A stretch of 64,000 nt of DNA from Phycisphaerales bacterium (GCA_020852275.1 JADZBE010000007.1:62001-126000); one strand, 5' to 3'; shown: positions 1,783-48,832, counted from the first letter of the stretch. Program-made: numbers and translations. Notes: generated by a model from the sequence alone, not told the origin.

Positions 1783-2835
1783 CTACTTCTGAAAGATCGG
1801 CAGCAGGCGGTTGGGCATTTGGAGGATGATGAGCGCCATCGCCGCCCCATATTCCGTGCCCGCCTGCCCGCGCCAGTAGCCCTCTTCCGCCTGCGTGGCC
1901 ACCAGCTCGTCGCGGATGGCTGGGTACCAGCGCTGCCAATACTCGTCGCCGGCGAGGTACATGGCCTGCGCGGCGTAATAATGTCCGTAGAAATAATGCC
2001 CCACGGACTCGCTCTTGGGAGGCGTGAAGCGCTCCAGGTAGCGCAGCCCGCGCTCGATTTCGTCGCCCTCGTAGATGCCGGCGTACTGCAGCGCCGCGAC
2101 GCCGGCCGCGGAGCGGGCAAAGGCCGAGCCGCCGGAGTTGAGCATGTAACGGAATCCGCCGTCGGGGTTCTGGCTGTTCTTGACGTACTCCACGGCGCGG
2201 TCGATCACGTCCTTGTCCACGTAGAGTCCGGCGTTGCGCGCGGCGCGCAGCGCCATGATCTGGCAGATGGTGACGGAGATGTCGGCGTCGTTGCGCACGG
2301 GCTGGTAGCGCCAGCCGCCTTCCTCGTTCTGCGTGGCGACGATGAGGCGGACGGCGCGGCGCAGCGCTTCGCGGACTTCCGGGCGCGGGGACATGCCGTA
2401 GGCCTCGGCAAGAAACAGCGTCGAGAAGCCGTGCCCGTACATGGGACCATGCGAGGTTTCGGCGGCGAGCAGGCCGCTCTCCGACGTGTGCGAGAGGATG
2501 AAGTCGAGGCAGCGCCGCACCTGTGGCGCGTAGCGTCCGCGGGTCGGCGTGTTGCCGTCGAGGATGAAGGCCATGCCGGACAGCCCGGTGATGGCGACGT
2601 GCGGGCCGTAGTGCGAGAGGCTGCCGAAGGAGCCGTCCTGCGCCTGGTTGTCGGCGAGCCACTTGAGGCCCTTGTCGATGGCGGCGCGCGATTGAGGGGT
2701 GAATTCGCCGGCGGCGGCGGAGGCGCCGAGCGCGGGGCGCGCGGCGGGCGGTTCCTGTGCGAGGGCGAGGAGAGCCGATTGGACTGCGAGGAAGAGCAGA
2801 AAGAGAAAGCGCGCGGCAGATCGGAATCGTCGCAC
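1783..2835 (-). CDS. Secreted prenyltransferase/squalene-oxidase repeat protein
   Basis: From a GTG at 2835 the protein is 350 aa. It starts with a clear signal peptide (MRRFRSAARFLFLLFLAVQS, then cleavage near ALAQ), followed by alpha-alpha-barrel repeats typical of the terpenoid cyclase / prenyltransferase fold: QDGSFGS, EEGGWRYQPV, NPDGGFRYML and EEGYWRGQ. Planctomycetes commonly carry such a protein at the end of MoxR/vWA operons; substrate and activity are unknown. The start is ambiguous. The frame is open up to an ATG at 3099, two bases after the upstream stop codon and preceded by AGGAG, but the extra 88 residues are encoded by a 26-bp repeat array and would bury the signal peptide. 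I prefer GTG 2835, which itself lies in the first repeat unit and has no obvious ribosome site. Confidence 0.8.
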   Translation of the reverse strand: MRRFRSAARFLFLLFLAVQSALLALAQEPPAARPALGASAAAGEFTPQSRAAIDKGLKWLADNQAQDGSFGSLSHYGPHVAITGLSGMAFILDGNTPTRGRYAPQVRRCLDFILSHTSESGLLAAETSHGPMYGHGFSTLFLAEAYGMSPRPEVREALRRAVRLIVATQNEEGGWRYQPVRNDADISVTICQIMALRAARNAGLYVDKDVIDRAVEYVKNSQNPDGGFRYMLNSGGSAFARSAAGVAALQYAGIYEGDEIERGLRYLERFTPPKSESVGHYFYGHYYAAQAMYLAGDEYWQRWYPAIRDELVATQAEEGYWRGQAGTEYGAAMALIILQMPNRLLPIFQK

Positions 2836-3038
2836 AGGTTGGAAACCTGTGCTACAGACACCGGTTGAAAACCGGTGCCACAGAGACCGGTTGGAAACCG
2901 GTGCCACACGTACAGGTTGGAAACCGGTGCTACAGACACCGGTTGAAAACCGGTGCCACAGGCCCCGGCTAGAAACCGGTGCCACACGTACAGGTTGGAA
3001 ACCGGTGCTACAGACACCGGTTGAAAACCGGTGCCACA
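2831..3038. repeat. Eight tandem 26-bp palindromic units (TGFQPV-type repeat)
   Basis: Eight exact-length 26-bp units follow one another at 2831, 2857, 2883, 2909, 2935, 2961, 2987 and 3013. The core is ACCGGTTGGAAACCGGT, an inverted repeat with a 5-base centre, followed by GCCACA or GCTACA. Three variants alternate, and units 4-5 and 7-8 form a repeated pair. The array has no stop codon in several frames and reads as TGFQPV / GWKPV peptides. It fills most of the space between two operon genes and reaches into the start codon of the prenyltransferase-repeat gene. There is no spacer variation, so it is not a CRISPR array. Confidence 0.95.
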
Positions 3039-3101
3039 CACGGTGCTTGCAAGCACCCCAAGCATCCCAAGCAACCCACTTTGTTCGGCGCGGCGTCATG
3101 C

Positions 3102-3983: not shown

Positions 3984-4004
3984 GCTCCCTGACGGTCGCG
4001 GCTC
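3984..4004. repeat. Dispersed GCTCCCT-ACGGTCGCGG element
   Basis: A copy of a short dispersed sequence, GCTCCCTGACGGTCGCGGCT, lies in the 210-bp gap between two operon genes. Near-identical copies are at 24383-24405 and 24416-24438 (inside a coding frame) and at 44498-44520 and 45845-45866 (next to duplicated pepT tails). It is an unclassified small repeat that apparently inserts in varied contexts. The remainder of 3822-4032 shows nothing. Confidence 0.7.
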
Positions 4005-22435: not shown

Positions 22436-22804
22436 TCAAGCTCCGGATGACCGCAACGGAGTTTGACGAAATTGCCCAGGGGCCGCGACGGTGAAGAACC
22501 CGTCCAGATCGGGCGCCGCGGCAAAGAAACTCTCCAGGCATGGAAGCACAACGGTCGGAGGTGATTGTCGAAGCCGAAACAGCACGATCCCGGGAGCGGG
22601 CCGGGCCCCTTGATGGAAGACGAGTTCCCCGTAGTCGCGGTCGAACGTCAAGACGATCCTGTCCTGCGCCCGCGCCGGCTCCAAGAGCGCGAGGTCTGAG
22701 GATCCCGCCAAGGTCTCCGCTGCGTGTACAACGTCGTCGCCCCGCTCACGCAGCCACAAGACCGTCTGGGCGGGGAAGTTCTCGTTGGCCAAGTACCTGC
22801 TCAT
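22436..22804 (-). CDS. DUF5615 PIN-like toxin
   Basis: This 122-aa protein starts SRYLANENFPAQTVLWLRER, then has VVHAAETLAGSSDLALLEPA and IVLTFDRDYGELVF, matching the DUF5615 (Mut7-C/PIN-like RNase) family. The acidic residues near E8, D37 and D55-D57 fit the PIN-type active-site layout. Its ATG overlaps the stop of the upstream DUF433 gene (ATGA), the normal order antitoxin then toxin. It likely acts as a ribonuclease toxin; the exact target is unknown. Confidence 0.85.
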   Translation of the reverse strand: MSRYLANENFPAQTVLWLRERGDDVVHAAETLAGSSDLALLEPARAQDRIVLTFDRDYGELVFHQGARPAPGIVLFRLRQSPPTVVLPCLESFFAAAPDLDGFFTVAAPGQFRQTPLRSSGA

Positions 22805-23070
22805 GCCGTTGTGGCTGCCGGCGGAAGAAGATGAAAGCGATCCTCCCGAAAGGTCTCAGCGGCGTACGCCAGCACGGCGCGAATGCGCTCCTCGGTCAGG
22901 TTGGGGTAGTTCCGGCGCAGGGATTCCCGATCCCAGTCTGCGGCCAGCATCTCCAGGACAAACTCGATGGAAAGTCGCGTTCCCTTCAGAGACGGCTTTC
23001 CGCAGAGGATCGCCGGATCGCAAACGACATGGTCGCGCCAGTTGACCGGCGGGGCCGTTGTCGCATTCAT
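22801..23070 (-). CDS. DUF433 antitoxin
   Basis: The 89-aa product starts at ATG 23070 (MNATTAPPVNW); ATG 23076 would add two residues. The DUF433 core is clear: CDPAILCGKPSLKGTRLSIE, then VLEMLAADWDRESLRRNYPN and LTEERIRAVLAYAAE. DUF433 proteins are HTH antitoxins of VapB type that pair with DUF5615 or PIN toxins. It overlaps the toxin gene by four bases. Its upstream region (23071-23120) joins directly to a copy of the 3' end of the adenylate-forming gene. Confidence 0.87.
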   Translation of the reverse strand: MNATTAPPVNWRDHVVCDPAILCGKPSLKGTRLSIEFVLEMLAADWDRESLRRNYPNLTEERIRAVLAYAAETFREDRFHLLPPAATTA

Positions 23071-23120
23071 TAACATATGAATTCTCTTGCCGGAAGTGTA
23101 CCGCTTCCTGCATTGCTCCT

Positions 23121-23231
23121 TCAATACACCCCCTCGACGATCGGCACCGCGAAGCCCGAGAAGGGGCGCACGTCGCCGGCGCCGTCCCAAGGGTAGCGAT
23201 CGCACGGCGGGTGGCGGACGGTCTCGTCGCG
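23121..23231 (-). pseudogene. Duplicated 3' end of the adenylate-forming enzyme gene
   Basis: These 111 bp align without gaps to 23767-23877, the true 3' end of the gene read from 25260, with six mismatches (about 95% identity). The copy includes the same final residues ([15 protein letters not shown]) and TGA stop. It lacks the rest of the gene, so it is a tail fragment. The two copies are in direct orientation 646 bp apart and bracket the brnTA pair. Confidence 0.93.
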
Positions 23232-23259
23232 CCGAGCCTGGCCAGGAAGAGTGGGCTTG

Positions 23260-25260
<2,001 letters not shown>

Positions 25261-25322
25261 GCCTGAGAATGGACCGGGCGTGGGCCGCAGTGTCAAGCCG
25301 AACTGGCACTTCAGCCTAATTG

Positions 25323-43051: not shown

Positions 43052-44305
43052 ATGTCGGCACTCCTGGAACGTTTCCTTCGTTACGTGAAGATCGAAACCA
43101 CCGCCGATGAGCGGAGCACGACGTATCCGAGCACGGCCACGCAGCTTGAGCTGAGCAAGCTGCTGCGTGACGAGCTTCAGGCTATCGGCGCGGCCGATGT
43201 GCACATGAGCGAGTTCGGCATCGTCACCGCGACGATCCCTTCGACGATCAAGGGCGCTACGGGCGGCACGGGCGGCAAGGGTGAGCCGCCGACGATCGCC
43301 CTCTTCGCCCATGTGGATACCTCCCCCGAGTTCACCGCGAAAAACGTCAACCCGCAGGTCATCCGCAACTACGACGGCAAGGACATCGTGCTCCCCAACT
43401 TCAAGGAGCGCGTCATCCGCACGTGCGAAACGCCGGGCCTGGCGGAGCTGAAAGGCAAGACGCTCATCACCACCGACGGCACGACGCTCCTCGGCGCGGA
43501 TGACAAGAGCGGCGTCGCCGTCATCATGACCGCCGCCGAGCATCTGCTGAAAAACCCGAGCATCGCGCATGGCCGCATCCGCGTCTGCTTCACCTGCGAC
43601 GAGGAGGTGGGCCACGGCGTCGATCACGTGGACCTCAAACAACTCGGCGCGCAGGTCGGCTACACGCTGGACGGCGAGGCGCAGGGCATCATCGACGCGG
43701 AGACCTTTTCGGCCGACCTCGCGGTGGTCACGGTGACGGGCATCAACACGCATCCGTCGGAAGGCAAGGGCCGCATGGTCAACGCCATCCGCATCCTGTC
43801 GGACTTTCTCTCGCGGCTGCCGTGGCAGTGGATGTCGCCGGAGGCGACGGACGGGCGCGACGGCTTCATGCACCCGTACAAGATTGAAGGCGGCGTGCCG
43901 GAAGCGAGCGTGCGCATCCTCCTGCGCGACTTCGTCACCGCGAATTTGCGCAAGGAGGAGGCGATCCTAGAGAGCATCGCCGCCGCCCTCCGCGCCGAGC
44001 ACCCGCGCGCCAAGATCGACATCAAGATCACCGAGCAGTACCGCAACATGGCCGACGGGCTGAAGAAAGAGCCGCGCGCCATCGCCAAGGCGGTCGAGGC
44101 GTTCAAGGCGCTGGGCATCGAGCCGAAGCTCAACATCGTCCGCGGCGGCACCGACGGCTCGCGCCTGACCGAGAAGGGCCTGCCCACGCCCAACCTCGCC
44201 ACCGGCATGCACAACTTCCACTCCCCGCTGGAATGGGCGTGCCTGGAGGAAATGGAGACGGCGGTGAAGATGCTGATTGAACTGGCGAAGGCGTGGGGGA
44301 GGTAG
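43052..44305 (+). CDS. pepT: Peptidase T (tripeptide aminopeptidase)
   Basis: At 417 aa it matches the family length. M20B zinc-peptidase motifs are in place: LFAHVDTSPE (His and Asp), LLGADDKSGVAVIM (bridging Asp), CFTCDEEVGHG (catalytic and metal Glu), VNAIRILSDF and the C-terminal GGTDGSRLTEKGLP and GMHNFHSPLEW (metal His). It removes the N-terminal residue from tripeptides in the cytoplasm using two zinc ions. The location downstream of two POT importers fits uptake then hydrolysis of short peptides. Its last 115 bp (44191-44305) are repeated twice more downstream. Confidence 0.95.
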   Translation: MSALLERFLRYVKIETTADERSTTYPSTATQLELSKLLRDELQAIGAADVHMSEFGIVTATIPSTIKGATGGTGGKGEPPTIALFAHVDTSPEFTAKNVNPQVIRNYDGKDIVLPNFKERVIRTCETPGLAELKGKTLITTDGTTLLGADDKSGVAVIMTAAEHLLKNPSIAHGRIRVCFTCDEEVGHGVDHVDLKQLGAQVGYTLDGEAQGIIDAETFSADLAVVTVTGINTHPSEGKGRMVNAIRILSDFLSRLPWQWMSPEATDGRDGFMHPYKIEGGVPEASVRILLRDFVTANLRKEEAILESIAAALRAEHPRAKIDIKITEQYRNMADGLKKEPRAIAKAVEAFKALGIEPKLNIVRGGTDGSRLTEKGLPTPNLATGMHNFHSPLEWACLEEMETAVKMLIELAKAWGR

Positions 44306-44526
44306 CCTCCAATTTGGATTGCGATTTCTGAATAGCCCGAAATTCGAGCGCGCCGTCAGAGCCGCGCGCGTAAGCAAGCGGGCGCCTCCGGTCGAGAGTT
44401 GCGGGTGCGATCATCTGCTTTGCGTGGAGTCTTGGGGAATGGGTTAAACTCCGAGTTGAGAAGGAGGATCGTTCCCGCGTGCGGACCCGTTCGGGACGCT
44501 CCCTGACGGTCGCGGCTCTGAAACGC

Positions 44527-44640
44527 CAACTTCGCCGCCGGCATGCGCACTTCCGATCCCCGCTGGAATGGGCGTGTATGGGGGAGACGGGAACGGCGGT
44601 GAAGATGCTGATCGAACTGGAGAAAGCGTGGGGGAAGTAG
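44527..44640 (+). pseudogene. Second copy of the pepT 3' end
   Basis: These 114 bp align along the full last 115 bp of pepT, ending with the same GTGGGGGAAGTAG-type stop. One deletion within ATGCGCACTTCCGATCCCCG breaks the frame, and several substitutions are present. The copy is preceded at 44498-44520 by the GCTCCCTGACGGTCGCGG dispersed element, which native pepT lacks at that place. Confidence 0.93.
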
Positions 44641-44664
44641 ACGCCCTTTGGAGTTGACCGCGCT

Positions 44665-45546
44665 ATGACTTGGACCAATGCCACTGAAATCGTCAAGGCT
44701 GCGAGCGAGCCGATCTGCAAATTGATTGAGACGGTCGGAGCCTTTGTGGGCGAGGCATATCAGCCGAGGCTCATGGTCAGGAGTGCGCGGGCTGAAGTGG
44801 AATCCGCTATTATCCGTGCGGAAGGGCAGGAGAAACTCACAAAAATCCAGCAACGAACCCTCGAACGATTGTTTCGGACTGAAACCCGTCGTCAGCATAA
44901 CATCGAACGCATCGTTGATGAGGCGGCGAGTAGCATACCCGATGACGTGTCCCAAACACCGGTTTCGGAGGATTGGATCGTACGCTTCTTTGAGGGTTGC
45001 CAAGACGTATCAGAAGCCGAGATGCAAGCGTTATGGGGGCGCATCCTTTCGGGCGAGGTTACGCAACCAGGATCGTTCTCGCCCTACACTCTTGACATCC
45101 TCCGCTTGATCAGAAAACGCGAGGCGGAGATGTTCACTTTATTTTGCACGCTGGTCTGGCAAATCAACGGTCAGCCAACGGTGCTTTTCCCCAGAAAGAG
45201 CGAATATTCGAAGCGTTACGCGCCGCTTCAGAACTTGAATCACTTGGAGTCGCTTGGATTGCTGCGGTTCGAATCGGAGTTCATGCAGTACTCCTTCACA
45301 TGTCCCGGCCCGGCCGCGCTCCTTTCGTACTTCGGTCGGAAATGTGTTCTGAAGGCGGCAAAGGAGCCCATTAAGCTGGAGATCGGAAGTGTCCTGCTAA
45401 GCCCCTCAGGCATAGAGCTCTTCCGAGTCGTAACACCGATCTCGGATGCGAAGTGCTATGACGAAGTTGTGGAATCTCTCGGAAAGGCTGACTTCGAGAT
45501 CTATCCCGTGACGGCGGAGGTGACCCATGCACCGAACGCCCGATAA
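44665..45546 (+). CDS. DUF2806-like protein
   Basis: This 293-aa protein begins at ATG 44665. The central block KLTKIQQRTLERLFRTETRR, QHNIERIVDEA and DWIVRFFEGCQDVSEAEMQ, then LWGRILSGEVTQPGSFSPYT, matches my memory of the DUF2806 / TIGR03899 family, whose function is unknown; members are often found in accessory regions. G+C is clearly lower than its surroundings: 29 of 60 bases are G or C in 44821-44880. It overlaps the following small gene by 20 bases. It is bracketed by direct repeats of the pepT tail. Horizontal acquisition is likely; a role in defence is speculation. Confidence 0.7.
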   Translation: MTWTNATEIVKAASEPICKLIETVGAFVGEAYQPRLMVRSARAEVESAIIRAEGQEKLTKIQQRTLERLFRTETRRQHNIERIVDEAASSIPDDVSQTPVSEDWIVRFFEGCQDVSEAEMQALWGRILSGEVTQPGSFSPYTLDILRLIRKREAEMFTLFCTLVWQINGQPTVLFPRKSEYSKRYAPLQNLNHLESLGLLRFESEFMQYSFTCPGPAALLSYFGRKCVLKAAKEPIKLEIGSVLLSPSGIELFRVVTPISDAKCYDEVVESLGKADFEIYPVTAEVTHAPNAR

Positions 45547-45769
45547 CATCCGGCGCGAGGGATTGAAAGCTCTTCGGGAGCGTCTTGGCCACGCAGGCAT
45601 GATCTGCTTCCTCCAGCAGTTTGAGACTGGCCACGGCGACTACGCCGCGGAGCGTCGGGAGTGGGTGGATCGCATCACCATGGACGACATCAAGCAAGCA
45701 GCGCGCCAGCCGAGGCGAGCCCAGGCCAAGAAGAAGCCCCGCCGATCGAACCGGGGGCGATCGAGCTGA
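45527..45769 (+). CDS. Small conserved-looking protein, possible antitoxin-like partner
   Basis: The 80-aa product starts MHRTPDNIRREGLKALRERL with GHAGMICFLQQFETGHGDYA next, a pattern I recall from small hypothetical proteins in cyanobacteria and other phyla. The C-terminus becomes Lys/Arg/Pro-rich (RAQAKKKPRRSNRGRSS). Its last codons and stop lie in sequence that aligns with a remnant of pepT, so its original C-terminus may have been replaced at the junction. The 20-base overlap with the DUF2806 gene suggests co-translation. The function is unassigned. Confidence 0.6.
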   Translation: MHRTPDNIRREGLKALRERLGHAGMICFLQQFETGHGDYAAERREWVDRITMDDIKQAARQPRRAQAKKKPRRSNRGRSS

Positions 45770-45988
45770 GAAAGAGTCTCGTCCGCGATGGCGCCGACGG
45801 CGCGCGGCTGAAGGGAAGCGTTCAGCCCGGACGGGAAATAGACCACTCCCTCACGGTCGCGGATCTGAAACATCAACCTCGCTCCCGGCGTGCACAACTT
45901 CCACTCGCCGCTGGAATGGGCGTGCCTGGAGGAAATGGAGACGGCGGTGAAGATGCTCATCGAACTGGCGAAGGCGTGGGGGAAGTAG
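45758..45988 (+). pseudogene. Third copy of the pepT 3' end
   Basis: The last 115 bp (45874-45988) match the native pepT tail end to end with few changes (GTGCACAACTTCCACTCGCC versus ATGCACAACTTCCACTCCCC). Upstream, 45758-45818 also aligns with the GGTDGSRL-encoding part of pepT. In between lies about 50 bp not in pepT, including the dispersed element at 45845-45866. The same element precedes copy two, so the two extra copies share an origin. They stand 1347 bp apart in direct orientation. Confidence 0.92.
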
Positions 45989-45991
45989 GGA

Positions 45992-46510
45992 ATGCACAGC
46001 CGCAAAAAAGGTGCAGCGGCTTTCCCGATGAATCCGCGGCGATCACGGTTCCTCGTGCGAACGGGGCTGGTGTGCTCGGTGCTTGTTGCCTTCGCTTGGG
46101 GTGCGAGCATTTGGCGTGGCGTCTACTACAACGCAACAGGCATTGGACCTGGTGCTTCCGAACCAGGACTCAGTCGCGAACGCGTAGCGAGCTTCTGCAT
46201 TCGTGACGGGTACGTTTGCTTCGGATGGGGCTCGTGTTTCGCTGGGCCCAATGGGGAGTGGTATTGTCGCGTACCCGAACGGTTCGATCACGGGTTCGGA
46301 TTCTTCGATTTATGGACATTTTCCAATCCAACATCTATCTATGCTGGTATTCCTCTATGGGTCCCCTTGATGGCCTTAGCCGTTCCAACGACCATCGCGT
46401 GGCGTCGCTTGAATCGCAAATCGAAGCATTGTTGCAAAATTCGCGGCTACCACCTCACCGGCAACGTCTCCGGCGTGTGTCCGGAGTGCGGCACGGTGGT
46501 CAAACGATGA
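45992..46510 (+). CDS. Membrane protein with degenerate zinc-ribbon tail
   Basis: This 172-aa protein starts at ATG 45992, or ATG 46028 (MNPRRSRFLVR). A first helix (RTGLVCSVLVAFAWGASIW) and a second (IPLWVPLMALAVPTTIAW) enclose a Cys-rich extracytoplasmic loop (CIRDGYVCFGWGSC). The tail reads CCKIRGYHLTGNVSGVCPEC, the planctomycete zinc-ribbon tail, but the second Cys of the first CxxC pair is Arg, so metal binding may be lost. Its ribosome site lies in the duplicated pepT tail immediately before it. Its stop overlaps the next start (ATGA). Confidence 0.7.
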   Translation: MHSRKKGAAAFPMNPRRSRFLVRTGLVCSVLVAFAWGASIWRGVYYNATGIGPGASEPGLSRERVASFCIRDGYVCFGWGSCFAGPNGEWYCRVPERFDHGFGFFDLWTFSNPTSIYAGIPLWVPLMALAVPTTIAWRRLNRKSKHCCKIRGYHLTGNVSGVCPECGTVVKR

Positions 46511-47007
46511 ATCTCGCACGGCGTAAGATCGAACTGAGCACGTGGCTGGCGGCCGTCGCGACGACGATCGTGTGCGTTTTTCCCACAGGCGGGCGCCCCG
46601 TTTCGCGCGAAGACCTGCTATTTGGGCTTTTCGTCGTGGCGCCCTATCTCATCATCCCGATCGCGATATCGCTGATCTATTTTCGTCCGGCTCAGCTTCG
46701 GCCACCATTTCGCCAGGCAGCTGTATTGGCGATCGTAACTTGCGGTTTTTCGGTGTTGGCATACGTTGAAGCCGCGTTCTTCCCGACATCCTCGACAGCC
46801 GGGCTTATCTTCCTATTCATGCCGATATGGATGCTGCTGGGCTCACTCGTGCTTGTTCCACTGCTGCTGGGTCGACCCAGCCCGGAAAAGGTGCGCGGAA
46901 ACTGCCAGACCTGCGGCTATGACTTGACTGGCAATGTCTCCGGGAAGTGTCCGGAATGCGGGGAAGTCGCAGGAGGACGCCAGACACGGTCGGATCATGT
47001 CGCCTAA
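46507..47007 (+). CDS. Four-helix membrane protein with zinc-ribbon tail
   Basis: The 166-aa product starts at ATG 46507, overlapping the preceding stop. Four hydrophobic segments are readable (about residues 10-25, 38-60, 70-90 and 98-122). The cytoplasmic tail has a full zinc ribbon: CQTCGYDLTGNVSGKCPECG. It belongs to a set of small planctomycete membrane proteins that share this tail but differ in their membrane part. No function is known to me. It overlaps the next gene by 11 bases. Confidence 0.75.
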   Translation: MNLARRKIELSTWLAAVATTIVCVFPTGGRPVSREDLLFGLFVVAPYLIIPIAISLIYFRPAQLRPPFRQAAVLAIVTCGFSVLAYVEAAFFPTSSTAGLIFLFMPIWMLLGSLVLVPLLLGRPSPEKVRGNCQTCGYDLTGNVSGKCPECGEVAGGRQTRSDHVA

Positions 47008-47749
47008 TCTGGAATCCGATCCTGCTGCTGAAGCGCCGCCTCGGCGACTCCGCCTCGCACGTTGGGTCGGCGGGAGATTTGCGGCGACATGCCTCCTGAT
47101 TGCGGTCCTCGGCGTTACACTCGCGATCGTTTCACGCCATCATCCATTCAGTCGCGGTATTGCCATCGGCCCACAATGGATCGAGGTGTCCGTCTTCCAC
47201 GGGCTTCTCGAGCTCCGTTGGGCAGACTTGGGCGGCACGGGCATTGAGGACGTGTTGGCGGGTTCGCGGCGCGAGTGGCGCTTCATGCGCGAAATACTCA
47301 GCATGGGGGAGTGGCTCTCTTCCTACGTGCCGCGCGATCCGAAAACTCGGCCACACTTCTCGAACGCCTCTATGGACACGCGCAACCACAGCGACATCGG
47401 CGCATGGATTCACGATGTGGAAACAACCGTAGTCGTGAAGTCGTGGGATACGGAAGCGTGGAAACCATCGCCCGGCGCTAACGTGACGGTCACCCCTTGG
47501 CTGCTCCACAGCAGAACGGTCTACAGCGCCACGGTCGAACTTCTGATGATCGGAATCCCGCTCCGGTTGACCGCTTCATGCCTCTTCGTGCTGTGCGCCG
47601 TTCACGCTGCCATCAAAGTTCGCCGGCGCCAGCTCCGCAAGCGCAGCGGAACCTGTATGAAGTGCGGCTACAACCTCACCGGCAACGTCTCCGGCGTGTG
47701 TCCGGAGTGCGGCACGGCGTGTGGCGGAACGAGTGGTTCCAGGACATAG
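46997..47749 (+). CDS. Two-helix membrane protein with zinc-ribbon tail
   Basis: This 250-aa protein starts at ATG 46997 (MSPNLESDPAAE), inside the end of the previous gene. Helix one (FAATCLLIAVLGVTLAIVS) and helix two (IPLRLTASCLFVLCAVHAAI) flank an extracytoplasmic domain of about 150 residues that I do not recognise. The tail is an intact zinc ribbon, CMKCGYNLTGNVSGVCPECG. The nucleotides of this tail are identical to those of the gene ending at 46510 over 45 bases (47673-47717 and 46452-46496), far more than expected for otherwise unlike genes. Confidence 0.75.
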   Translation: MSPNLESDPAAEAPPRRLRLARWVGGRFAATCLLIAVLGVTLAIVSRHHPFSRGIAIGPQWIEVSVFHGLLELRWADLGGTGIEDVLAGSRREWRFMREILSMGEWLSSYVPRDPKTRPHFSNASMDTRNHSDIGAWIHDVETTVVVKSWDTEAWKPSPGANVTVTPWLLHSRTVYSATVELLMIGIPLRLTASCLFVLCAVHAAIKVRRRQLRKRSGTCMKCGYNLTGNVSGVCPECGTACGGTSGSRT

Positions 47750-48483
47750 TCCAATCACCCCAAAGGGGCTTAGGAAACGGACAGGACGTTGCATTCGCCC
47801 TGAAGGGGCAGCCTAGCGCCAGCCCAGGGCAACGCCCTGGGTGTCAATGCGGCGGCACCGAAAAGCCCTGAAAGGGCGGTCTAGCATGACGTGGAGTTGG
47901 GTCGCCCTTTCAGGGCTCAATGTGTTCAATGGGCGTCCTTTCCCCAGGGCGTTGCCCTGGGCTGGGGCTAATGCGCCCCGTCGGGGCTTGGGAAGCGCCC
48001 CGGTTCCAATCCCGTCGGTCCGAAACCCATTCGCCCCGAAGAGGGTTTGGAAGCAGACAGGACGTTGAATTCGCCCCGAATGGGTTTAGTGGGCGGCCAG
48101 AACGTGGAATTCGCCCCAAAGGGGCAACCTAGCACCAGCCCAGGGCAACGCCCTGGGTGAACGAAGCGGCGGTCGTGGGCAGCCCTGAAAGGGCGACCTA
48201 GCGTTAGCCCAGGGCAACGCCCTGGGTGTCAAGGCGGCGGCACACGAAAGCCCTGAAAGGGCGGCCTAACCCTAGCCCAGGGCAACGCCCTGGGTGAACG
48301 GAGCGGCGGTCGTGGGCAGCCCTGAAAGGGCGACCTAGCGTTAGCCCAGGGCAACGCCCCGGGTGTCAAGGCGGCGGCACCGGCAAGCCCTGAAAGGGCG
48401 ATCTAGCATGGCGTTGAGCTGGAGCGCCCTTTCAGGGCTTTGAAGACGGGTTGGGTCGATGACCCAAGGCGTTGCCCTGGGCT
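47750..48483. repeat. Array of two alternating stem-loop motifs
   Basis: Two palindromes recur: GCCCTGAAAGGGC and CCCAGGGCAACGCCCTGGG. The second begins at about 47823, 48139, 48208, 48276 and 48345 in one direction and at about 47943 and 48467 in the other. Within 48137-48410 they form four units of 68-69 bp, alternating two spacer types, so the larger period is about 137 bp. Outer parts carry GCCCCAAAGGGGC-type variants. No transposase or RAYT gene is adjacent. No reading frame here is credible. Confidence 0.92.
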
Positions 48484-48525
48484 ACCGCTGAAGCGCCCCG
48501 TTGGGGCTTGGGAACCGTCCTGGTC

Positions 48526-48615
48526 CCAATCCGGTCGGCCCCAATCCCGTCGATCCGAATCCCGTCGATCCGAATCCCGTCGGTCCGAATCCCGTCGGTG
48601 CCAATCCGGTCGGTC
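48526..48615. repeat. Six tandem 15-bp units
   Basis: Six consecutive 15-bp units of the form CGAATCCCGTCGGTC start at 48526, 48541, 48556, 48571, 48586 and 48601. One related unit is at 48006-48020 in the neighbouring array. Because 15 is a multiple of three, all frames stay open and give simple five-residue repeats, which should not be taken as coding. Confidence 0.92.
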
Positions 48616-48619
48616 CCAA

Positions 48620-48832
48620 GCACGCCGATCTCAGGCACATCGATCGCAGGCATCTCAGGCGCAAACACAACGATCGCGATCACGTCGGTTGCGGTCTGGG
48701 TGGTCGCGGTCACGTTCCAGATTCTCGGGGCATGTGTTGCTATTTTCATGTCGCACCTGCGGCTACGACCTCACGGGCAACGTCTCCGGCGTGTGTTTGG
48801 AATGTGGTCAACCGACGCCAACGGGGTCGTGA
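48620..48832 (+). pseudogene. Frameshifted remnant of a zinc-ribbon-tail membrane gene
   Basis: One frame encodes a hydrophobic helix (SVAVWVVAVTFQILGACVAI, about 48679-48738). A different frame, starting within a few bases, encodes the tail CRTCGYDLTGNVSGVCLECG (about 48753-48812) with its stop at 48830-48832. The intact relatives nearby have exactly this order, helix then zinc ribbon, so a frameshift near 48745 is the simplest reading. No start with a ribosome site is visible, and the 5' side is tandem repeat. Confidence 0.65.

Follow-up and report, generated by a model that had tools for sequence, protein, structure and literature searches.

The 3' end of pepT occurs three times in the stretch of a Phycisphaerales genome that was analysed (the window, 64,000 nt), and the distal copy stands behind a DUF2806 gene and a small partner gene. 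The same layout, in which a host gene is followed by toxin-antitoxin or defence cargo and then by a 58- to 210-nt copy of its own 3' end, was found at nine host genes in a scan of the window genome and a sister species and in later searches with nuoF. At two of them, 'lig' and nuoF, comparison with empty relatives indicated that the element restores the host 3' end and that the old 3' end lies distal to it.

The window genome (G000; 5.05 Mb, 43 contigs) is a MAG, as are all genomes of the genus that were compared. These include the sister-species MAG Bin_14R (G003; JAJVHU010000013.1) and two sister genomes of the same genus, G001 and G002, which served as the reference for empty sites. Genes were called with our own codon model. 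The host-gene names other than pepT are provisional and give the authors' reading of the sequences, and 'lig' is a working label for a 509-aa host gene.

The pepT locus and its cargo

The features of the locus are as follows.

43052..44305, + strand: host gene pepT (tripeptide aminopeptidase), intact; NCBIfam TIGR01882 peptidase-T, over cutoff
44191..44305, + strand: native pepT 3' tail; homology to c2 reaches back to 44136
44356..44521: REP-like pair with inverted arms 44356-44380 and 44497-44521 (80%); right arm with CTCCCTGACGGTCGCGG
44526..44640, + strand: extra tail c1, decayed, seen in G000 alone
44665..45546, + strand: cargo gene 1, DUF2806 protein, 293 aa; PF10987, E 1.1e-39
45527..45769, + strand: cargo gene 2, 80-aa protein with FLQQFE motif; overlaps cargo gene 1
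45779..45811, + strand: extra tail c2, 5' part; 85% to pepT 44136-44168, begins 9 nt past the cargo stop
45846..45862, + strand: REP-like element within c2, missing from the G003 copy
45874..45988, + strand: extra tail c2, main part; 94% to native, ends at the pepT stop
44499-44515, 45846-45862, 3985-4001 and 24384-24433: sites of the REP-like family CTCCCTNACGGTCGCGG

The native tail, c1 and c2 are direct copies that all terminate on the TAG stop, and sequence comparison bore out the initial annotation of a pepT 3' end present three times. Within the 5.05-Mb genome, the tail occurs in three places, all at the pepT locus, which rules out an independent repeat family. The second extra copy is real as well but longer than first described, as homology resumes at 45779-45811; c2 is what is left of a tail of some 170 nt, split by a REP-like element. 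The c1 copy matches the native tail at 75% ungapped and 85% gapped, with one frameshifting deletion. A DGR template/variable repeat was rejected because the tail differences are of several kinds and not adenine-specific, and no RT was found among the cargo.

The cargo had been described as DUF2806 with lower G+C, and both the PF10987 match and a G+C content of 53-58% (versus 62-68%) agree with that description. Inspection of the cargo likewise agreed with the earlier remark that no integrase or transposase lies between the pepT tail copies. PADLOC gave no match for the DUF2806 protein and the small protein; the company that they keep suggests that they may form a toxin-antitoxin or defence module. 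Behind pepT in G003, homologues of cargo gene 1 (72% aa identity) and of cargo gene 2 (55% identity) stand in the same place, and a small protein resembling cargo gene 2 was also found in the acyl-CoA dehydrogenase (ACAD) array of G003 and behind ACAD in G031. The stretch 44306-44500, considered as a leftover of the DUF2806 unit, gave a weak match only.

The REP-like element stands before the shared part in both c1 (44499-44515) and c2 (45846-45862), as had been noticed initially. The two copies share this REP junction and therefore derive from each other. Because the tail copy of G003 lacks the element, it was not an original part of the unit, and the initial reading is corrected on this point. 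Five sites are present in the window against 0.11 expected, and exact copies number 117 in G000, 13-74 in four relatives and 4 in G029, with 0 copies of the reversed-sequence control in G000. Homologues of Y1/REP-associated transposases occur in six of six genomes, and in G031 one sits about 450 bp past pepT. As a cause of the layout the element was ruled out, since it is absent from the G003 copy and from the junctions of the other loci.

Three relatives of the same genus differed at this locus: one has a single extra tail with DUF2806, one has pepT without an extra tail, and one gave no pepT match. The order in G003 is pepT, a gap of 19 nt, DUF2806, the small protein and a single pepT tail, degenerate and about 180 nt long, with neither the REP-like element nor c1; in G002, pepT has neither DUF2806 nor extra tails. 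The pepT protein is 93% identical (aa) to those of G002 and G003. The proposed search for loci with zero, one or several extra tails gave zero in G002, one in G003 and two in G000. Relatives alike in arrangement and cargo, named initially as counterevidence, were not what was found: the relatives differ, and eight more genes carry other cargo. Neutral shared inheritance with constant cargo is ruled out by G002 and by the other loci.

A further correction to the initial reading is that c1 is found only in G000; the DUF2806 unit with its distal tail is present in the sister species too, with the same pepT junction. The cargo ends and the tail starts at an identical pepT position in both genomes, and this junction therefore arose once. 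The extra tail of G003 has TAC, as G002 does, and the native tails of G000 and G003 both have TGG; this one codon weakly favours the native tail of G003 as the newcomer.

Among 51 genomes of the family, extra pepT tails were found only in G000 and G003. When 88 other pepT loci were screened, tails were detected in two, the sister species and one Bacteroidetes MAG (L076; PLYN01000040.1). Behind pepT, this MAG has an antitoxin-like gene, a ParE toxin and then the extra pepT tail, in which EERS-stop is kept in different codons (AGG AGT TAG versus CGA TCT TAA).

The pepT neighbourhoods of G000, G002 and G003 differ, with no synteny in the compared stretches; a POT transporter upstream of pepT is common to G000 and G031. 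Elsewhere in the window, neighbouring genes have a common zinc-ribbon C-terminus (GNVSGVCPECG) at 46443-46496, 46913-46961, 47664-47717 and 48758-48807, with up to 98% DNA identity over 54 nt. The same zinc-ribbon 3' end also stands behind pepT in G003 and G029, a 3'-end-only repeat that may reflect gene conversion. Tandem or nested direct repeats were found by window self-comparison at 2831-3041 and 47755-48548.

Recurrence at nine host genes

Gene tails repeated at most 6 kb away were sought in 1.30 Mb of G000 and 0.46 Mb of G003, with mirror-image controls. The scan gave 14 downstream tail copies outside same-strand genes, of which about two are zinc-ribbon or PIN paralogue noise; the controls gave one head upstream, no tail upstream and no head downstream. 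This asymmetry was counted in favour of recombination through gene tails. A gene-head copy (128 nt, 94%) just 5' of its own gene in G003 (C2:157647-157773) is a rare 5' counterpart. At another G003 site (C7:128104-129772), the last 48 nt of a gene are followed directly by about five near-perfect copies with a 50-nt period.

The host genes are pepT, 'lig', fabI, icd, an aldehyde dehydrogenase, ACAD, nuoF, argC and an aminotransferase. The cargo contains known toxin, antitoxin or defence domains and includes a BrnT module, DUF433 with DUF5615, an aspartyl protease, PIN proteins (with Pfam matches under the curated cutoff at ACAD and argC), VapBC-type pairs, ParE-type and Fic proteins, a CopG-type antitoxin with a trypsin-like protein, DUF6883 with DUF4926 and, behind icd, a HEC-01A/B-like pair.

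All listed cargo is co-directional with its host gene and starts at a median of 45 nt past the host stop. The tail then starts at a median of 16 nt (1-71) past the last cargo stop in 14 of 14 units, which measure 0.3-6 kb. The modules of one array are mostly unrelated, as with BrnT followed by PIN, or Fic, PIN and others at ACAD. In G003, the ACAD array comprises several modules and three tail pieces across 6 kb. ACAD in G000 is followed by a PIN protein and a 302-aa protein as in G003, with an identical junction, and the cassette-tail junction is common to the two genomes at both ACAD and pepT. Some of the shared cassettes could reflect vertical inheritance with loss from G001 and G002.

No integrase was detected among the cargo ORFs listed and Pfam-scanned. 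Inspection of the 14 junctions by eye gave no common motif or att core, and a site-specific end motif was rejected. In contrast to transposons and IS elements, the junctions lack terminal repeats and the duplications of 58-210 nt come with no transposase. No IntI was found in the cargo examined, and the repeats are specific to each host gene rather than attC, unlike in integrons.

The layout was absent from 200 kb each of G027 and G046, which belong to other families, and from 449 kb of other planctomycete pepT loci, and 415 kb from other phyla gave one case outside genes. It is therefore either strongly enriched in the genus or short-lived elsewhere. Between G003 (L232 for icd, L231 for fabI) and G002 (L236 and L235), synteny breaks exactly at the icd and fabI stop codons, and these two 3' ends of G003 look as if they were insertion sites too.

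Empty sites and displaced 3' ends

The second case in the window is a BrnT module behind 'lig', with the following features.

23767..25296, - strand: host gene 'lig', 509 aa
23474..23770, - strand: BrnT toxin; PF04365, 1e-28; start overlaps the host stop
23260..23571, - strand: partner in the BrnA position; MKKATR... start within the ORF; no Pfam match
23121..23236, - strand: extra copy of the last 116 nt of 'lig', 94%
22436..23205, - strand: second module of the 'lig' array, DUF433 antitoxin-type (PF04255, 1.2e-17) with DUF5615 PIN-like toxin-type (PF18480, 1.9e-19)

Window self-comparison gave the 'lig' repeat as about 116-117 nt (23121-23236 versus 23767-23883) with the same stop codon, and five of the six altered codons in the copy are synonymous. 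The 'lig' locus carries no insert in G001 and G002, and this comparison proves the empty site. In G003, the gene is followed by the BrnT module, a 58-nt tail (x1), the PIN module, a 186-nt tail (x2) and the flank. Together, x2 and the flank are collinear, base by base, with the native tail of G002 and, past the stop, with the old flank; x1 and x2 have one private base in common.

At nuoF, the order in G001 and G002 is nuoF, a Zn-ribbon gene and a methyltransferase gene. In G003 it is nuoF, a VapBC-type pair, x1, the Zn-ribbon gene, x2, a second VapBC-type pair and the methyltransferase gene. The x1 copy runs into the Zn-ribbon gene in the manner of the native tail of G001 and G002 and is therefore the displaced original 3' end of nuoF. 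Its 5' part has the VapC-tail junction in common with x2, as a single crossover would predict, which suggests that x1 is a mosaic of donor 5' and recipient 3' parts, distinguished at few sites. A different module, ParE-type with a 78-nt tail, follows nuoF in G000, and such different modules at one gene were counted for recombination through the tail. Among 114 genomes of the order, a search with a cutoff above the 78-nt G000 copy gave extra nuoF tails only in G003, plus a weak fragment on another contig in G063. Replacement tracts traced by sliding informative sites were suggestive at pepT and nuoF; fabI without an insert dips similarly, and the tracts were not used as proof.

The 90 differences between native and extra tails (c1 excluded) are distributed over the codon positions as 21/16/53. 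The third-position excess has p 6e-7 against 1/3 and p of about 0.008 against 0.456, the latter (about 46%) being a rough estimate of the third-position share for a neutral copy beside a constrained gene. The copies appear to differ as two functional alleles do and not as one decaying copy, a reading that the altered codons of the Bacteroidetes tail and the similar third-position bias of the integrative case e14/icd also favour. Some third-position excess is, all the same, expected of a neutral copy next to a constrained gene.

Route of entry and known systems

We hold it somewhat probable that a module with its host-gene tail enters by RecA-type recombination through the tail. A circle would form when a donor fragment of tail and module is ligated, or when two tails of an array recombine and release it, and would integrate through a single crossover in the tail of the recipient gene. 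That gene would remain intact with a donor 3' end and the module directly behind it, and the recipient's old 3' end would be displaced downstream as a scar. This downstream tail would have a donor-type 5' end and a recipient-type 3' end joined to the old flank. The scar could then act as a second homology arm for further transfer, array growth and precise loss, and repeated entry would build arrays. We infer the circle, RecA, the transfer between cells and the arm function. A unit that carries a target-gene tail and enters by Campbell-type insertion had been proposed in the initial annotation; the nine-gene layout and the empty site support it, and the element appears to work like a Campbell-type integrant with a host tail. 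Two points count against a single crossover: the donor and recipient segments are inseparable for most tails, and random fragment ends do not account for how compact the cassettes are at their right end, unless some selection is assumed.

Homology-facilitated illegitimate recombination (HFIR), the main rival, would have the same outcome of displaced 3' ends and arrays and was proposed for the Vibrio T6SS immunity arrays, in which old 3' ends are shifted back (PMC5361080). A linear gene-module fragment would recombine in the gene while its other end joins illegitimately in the recipient 3' end, which would stay as a remnant, and repeated events would give arrays. The absence of a conserved motif at the junctions fits this route. 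However, a wholly recipient-type distal tail is predicted, whereas at nuoF the 5' junction of x1 is also that of x2; random donor DNA is predicted past the module, whereas all 14 units have the tail 1-71 nt past the cargo stop. In E. coli, HFIR occurs about a million times less often than homologous recombination, and linear DNA is integrated more commonly by ligation and single crossover (PMC3240628). Both the entry by HFIR and the growth of arrays by it are considered unlikely here. An integrase or transposase acting in trans could place modules at gene 3' ends with a long target duplication (60-210 nt). The strong 3'-end specificity and cassette B of G003, which resembles a target duplication of 195 nt that extends 8 nt beyond the stop, speak for such an enzyme, but none was present among the cargo tested, the junctions have no end motif, the duplication length is variable, and the extra tails share private variants with each other and not with the native tail. 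This explanation is considered improbable.

Local tandem duplication of tail and module in one genome, followed by deletion or decay without any transfer, might be read from the two VapBC-type modules of G003 nuoF with tails between them and from the REP element and cargo-end-like junction common to c1 and c2. It is nevertheless very doubtful, given that the modules of one array are mostly unrelated, that the flank of the empty site meets the distal tail with no second module, and that the copies differ like two functional alleles. Ordinary decay or an assembly artefact, with tails retained by chance, is scarcely credible: although the genomes are MAGs and c1 and parts of c2 are degenerate, independent MAGs agree at the same genes and the mirror controls are nearly empty.

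Recombination through the tail might extend to a broader, more tentative proposal: integrase-free mobile cassettes, each a module with a host-gene tail, whose flanking copies would serve as homology arms ('knock-in cassettes'), whose retention would be selected by addiction or defence, and which would occur in several phyla. How chromosomal toxin-antitoxin and small defence modules move without an integrase has long been asked. With a host-gene tail behind it, a module would carry a readable scar of its insertion that records the host allele and often a displaced 3' end, and gene-tail fragments beside modules would be signs of recombination rather than random pseudogenes. If general, the mechanism would turn the question into a genome-scale count, explain the co-directional placement of modules behind core genes, and predict precise loss by tail-tail recombination.

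Tests for integrase and shared-site features found neither, and the layout was accordingly placed in no known family of elements; there is a fair chance that the pattern is a class of its own. No description of it for toxin-antitoxin modules was found in the literature searched, which included few subscription journals. Integron gene cassettes are also small, co-directional, rich in toxin-antitoxin genes and arrayed behind one site, but they share attC, whereas the repeat here is the host gene's own tail and no IntI was seen in the cargo examined. Orphan toxin/immunity modules of Rhs/CDI systems likewise have displaced 3' fragments between modules, but these belong to the toxin gene and not to a core metabolic gene. 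The Vibrio T6SS effector-immunity arrays (Kirchberger 2017, PMC5361080) are alike in that insertions displace old 3' ends and genes and arrays form without an integrase; they differ in that the host gene itself is the toxin, whereas the present modules are anchored on unrelated housekeeping genes. In E. coli, ligated linear DNA that integrates by single crossover (PMC3240628) gives the same order of gene, insert and partial gene copy and involves RecA, but this is a laboratory construct and not a natural recurrent class with typical cargo.

The nearest precedents are the Vibrio arrays and the cryptic prophage e14 (and phage 21) in E. coli icd. The latter resembles the present units in leaving an intact host gene with its last 165 nt repeated (92.7%) beyond the insert. 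It is unlike them in measuring 15 kb, in carrying intE, xisE and other phage genes, and in occupying one site, compared with 0.3-6 kb, nine genes and arrays here. The differences between the e14/icd tails fall on the codon positions as 1/0/11, that is, 11 of 12 on the third.
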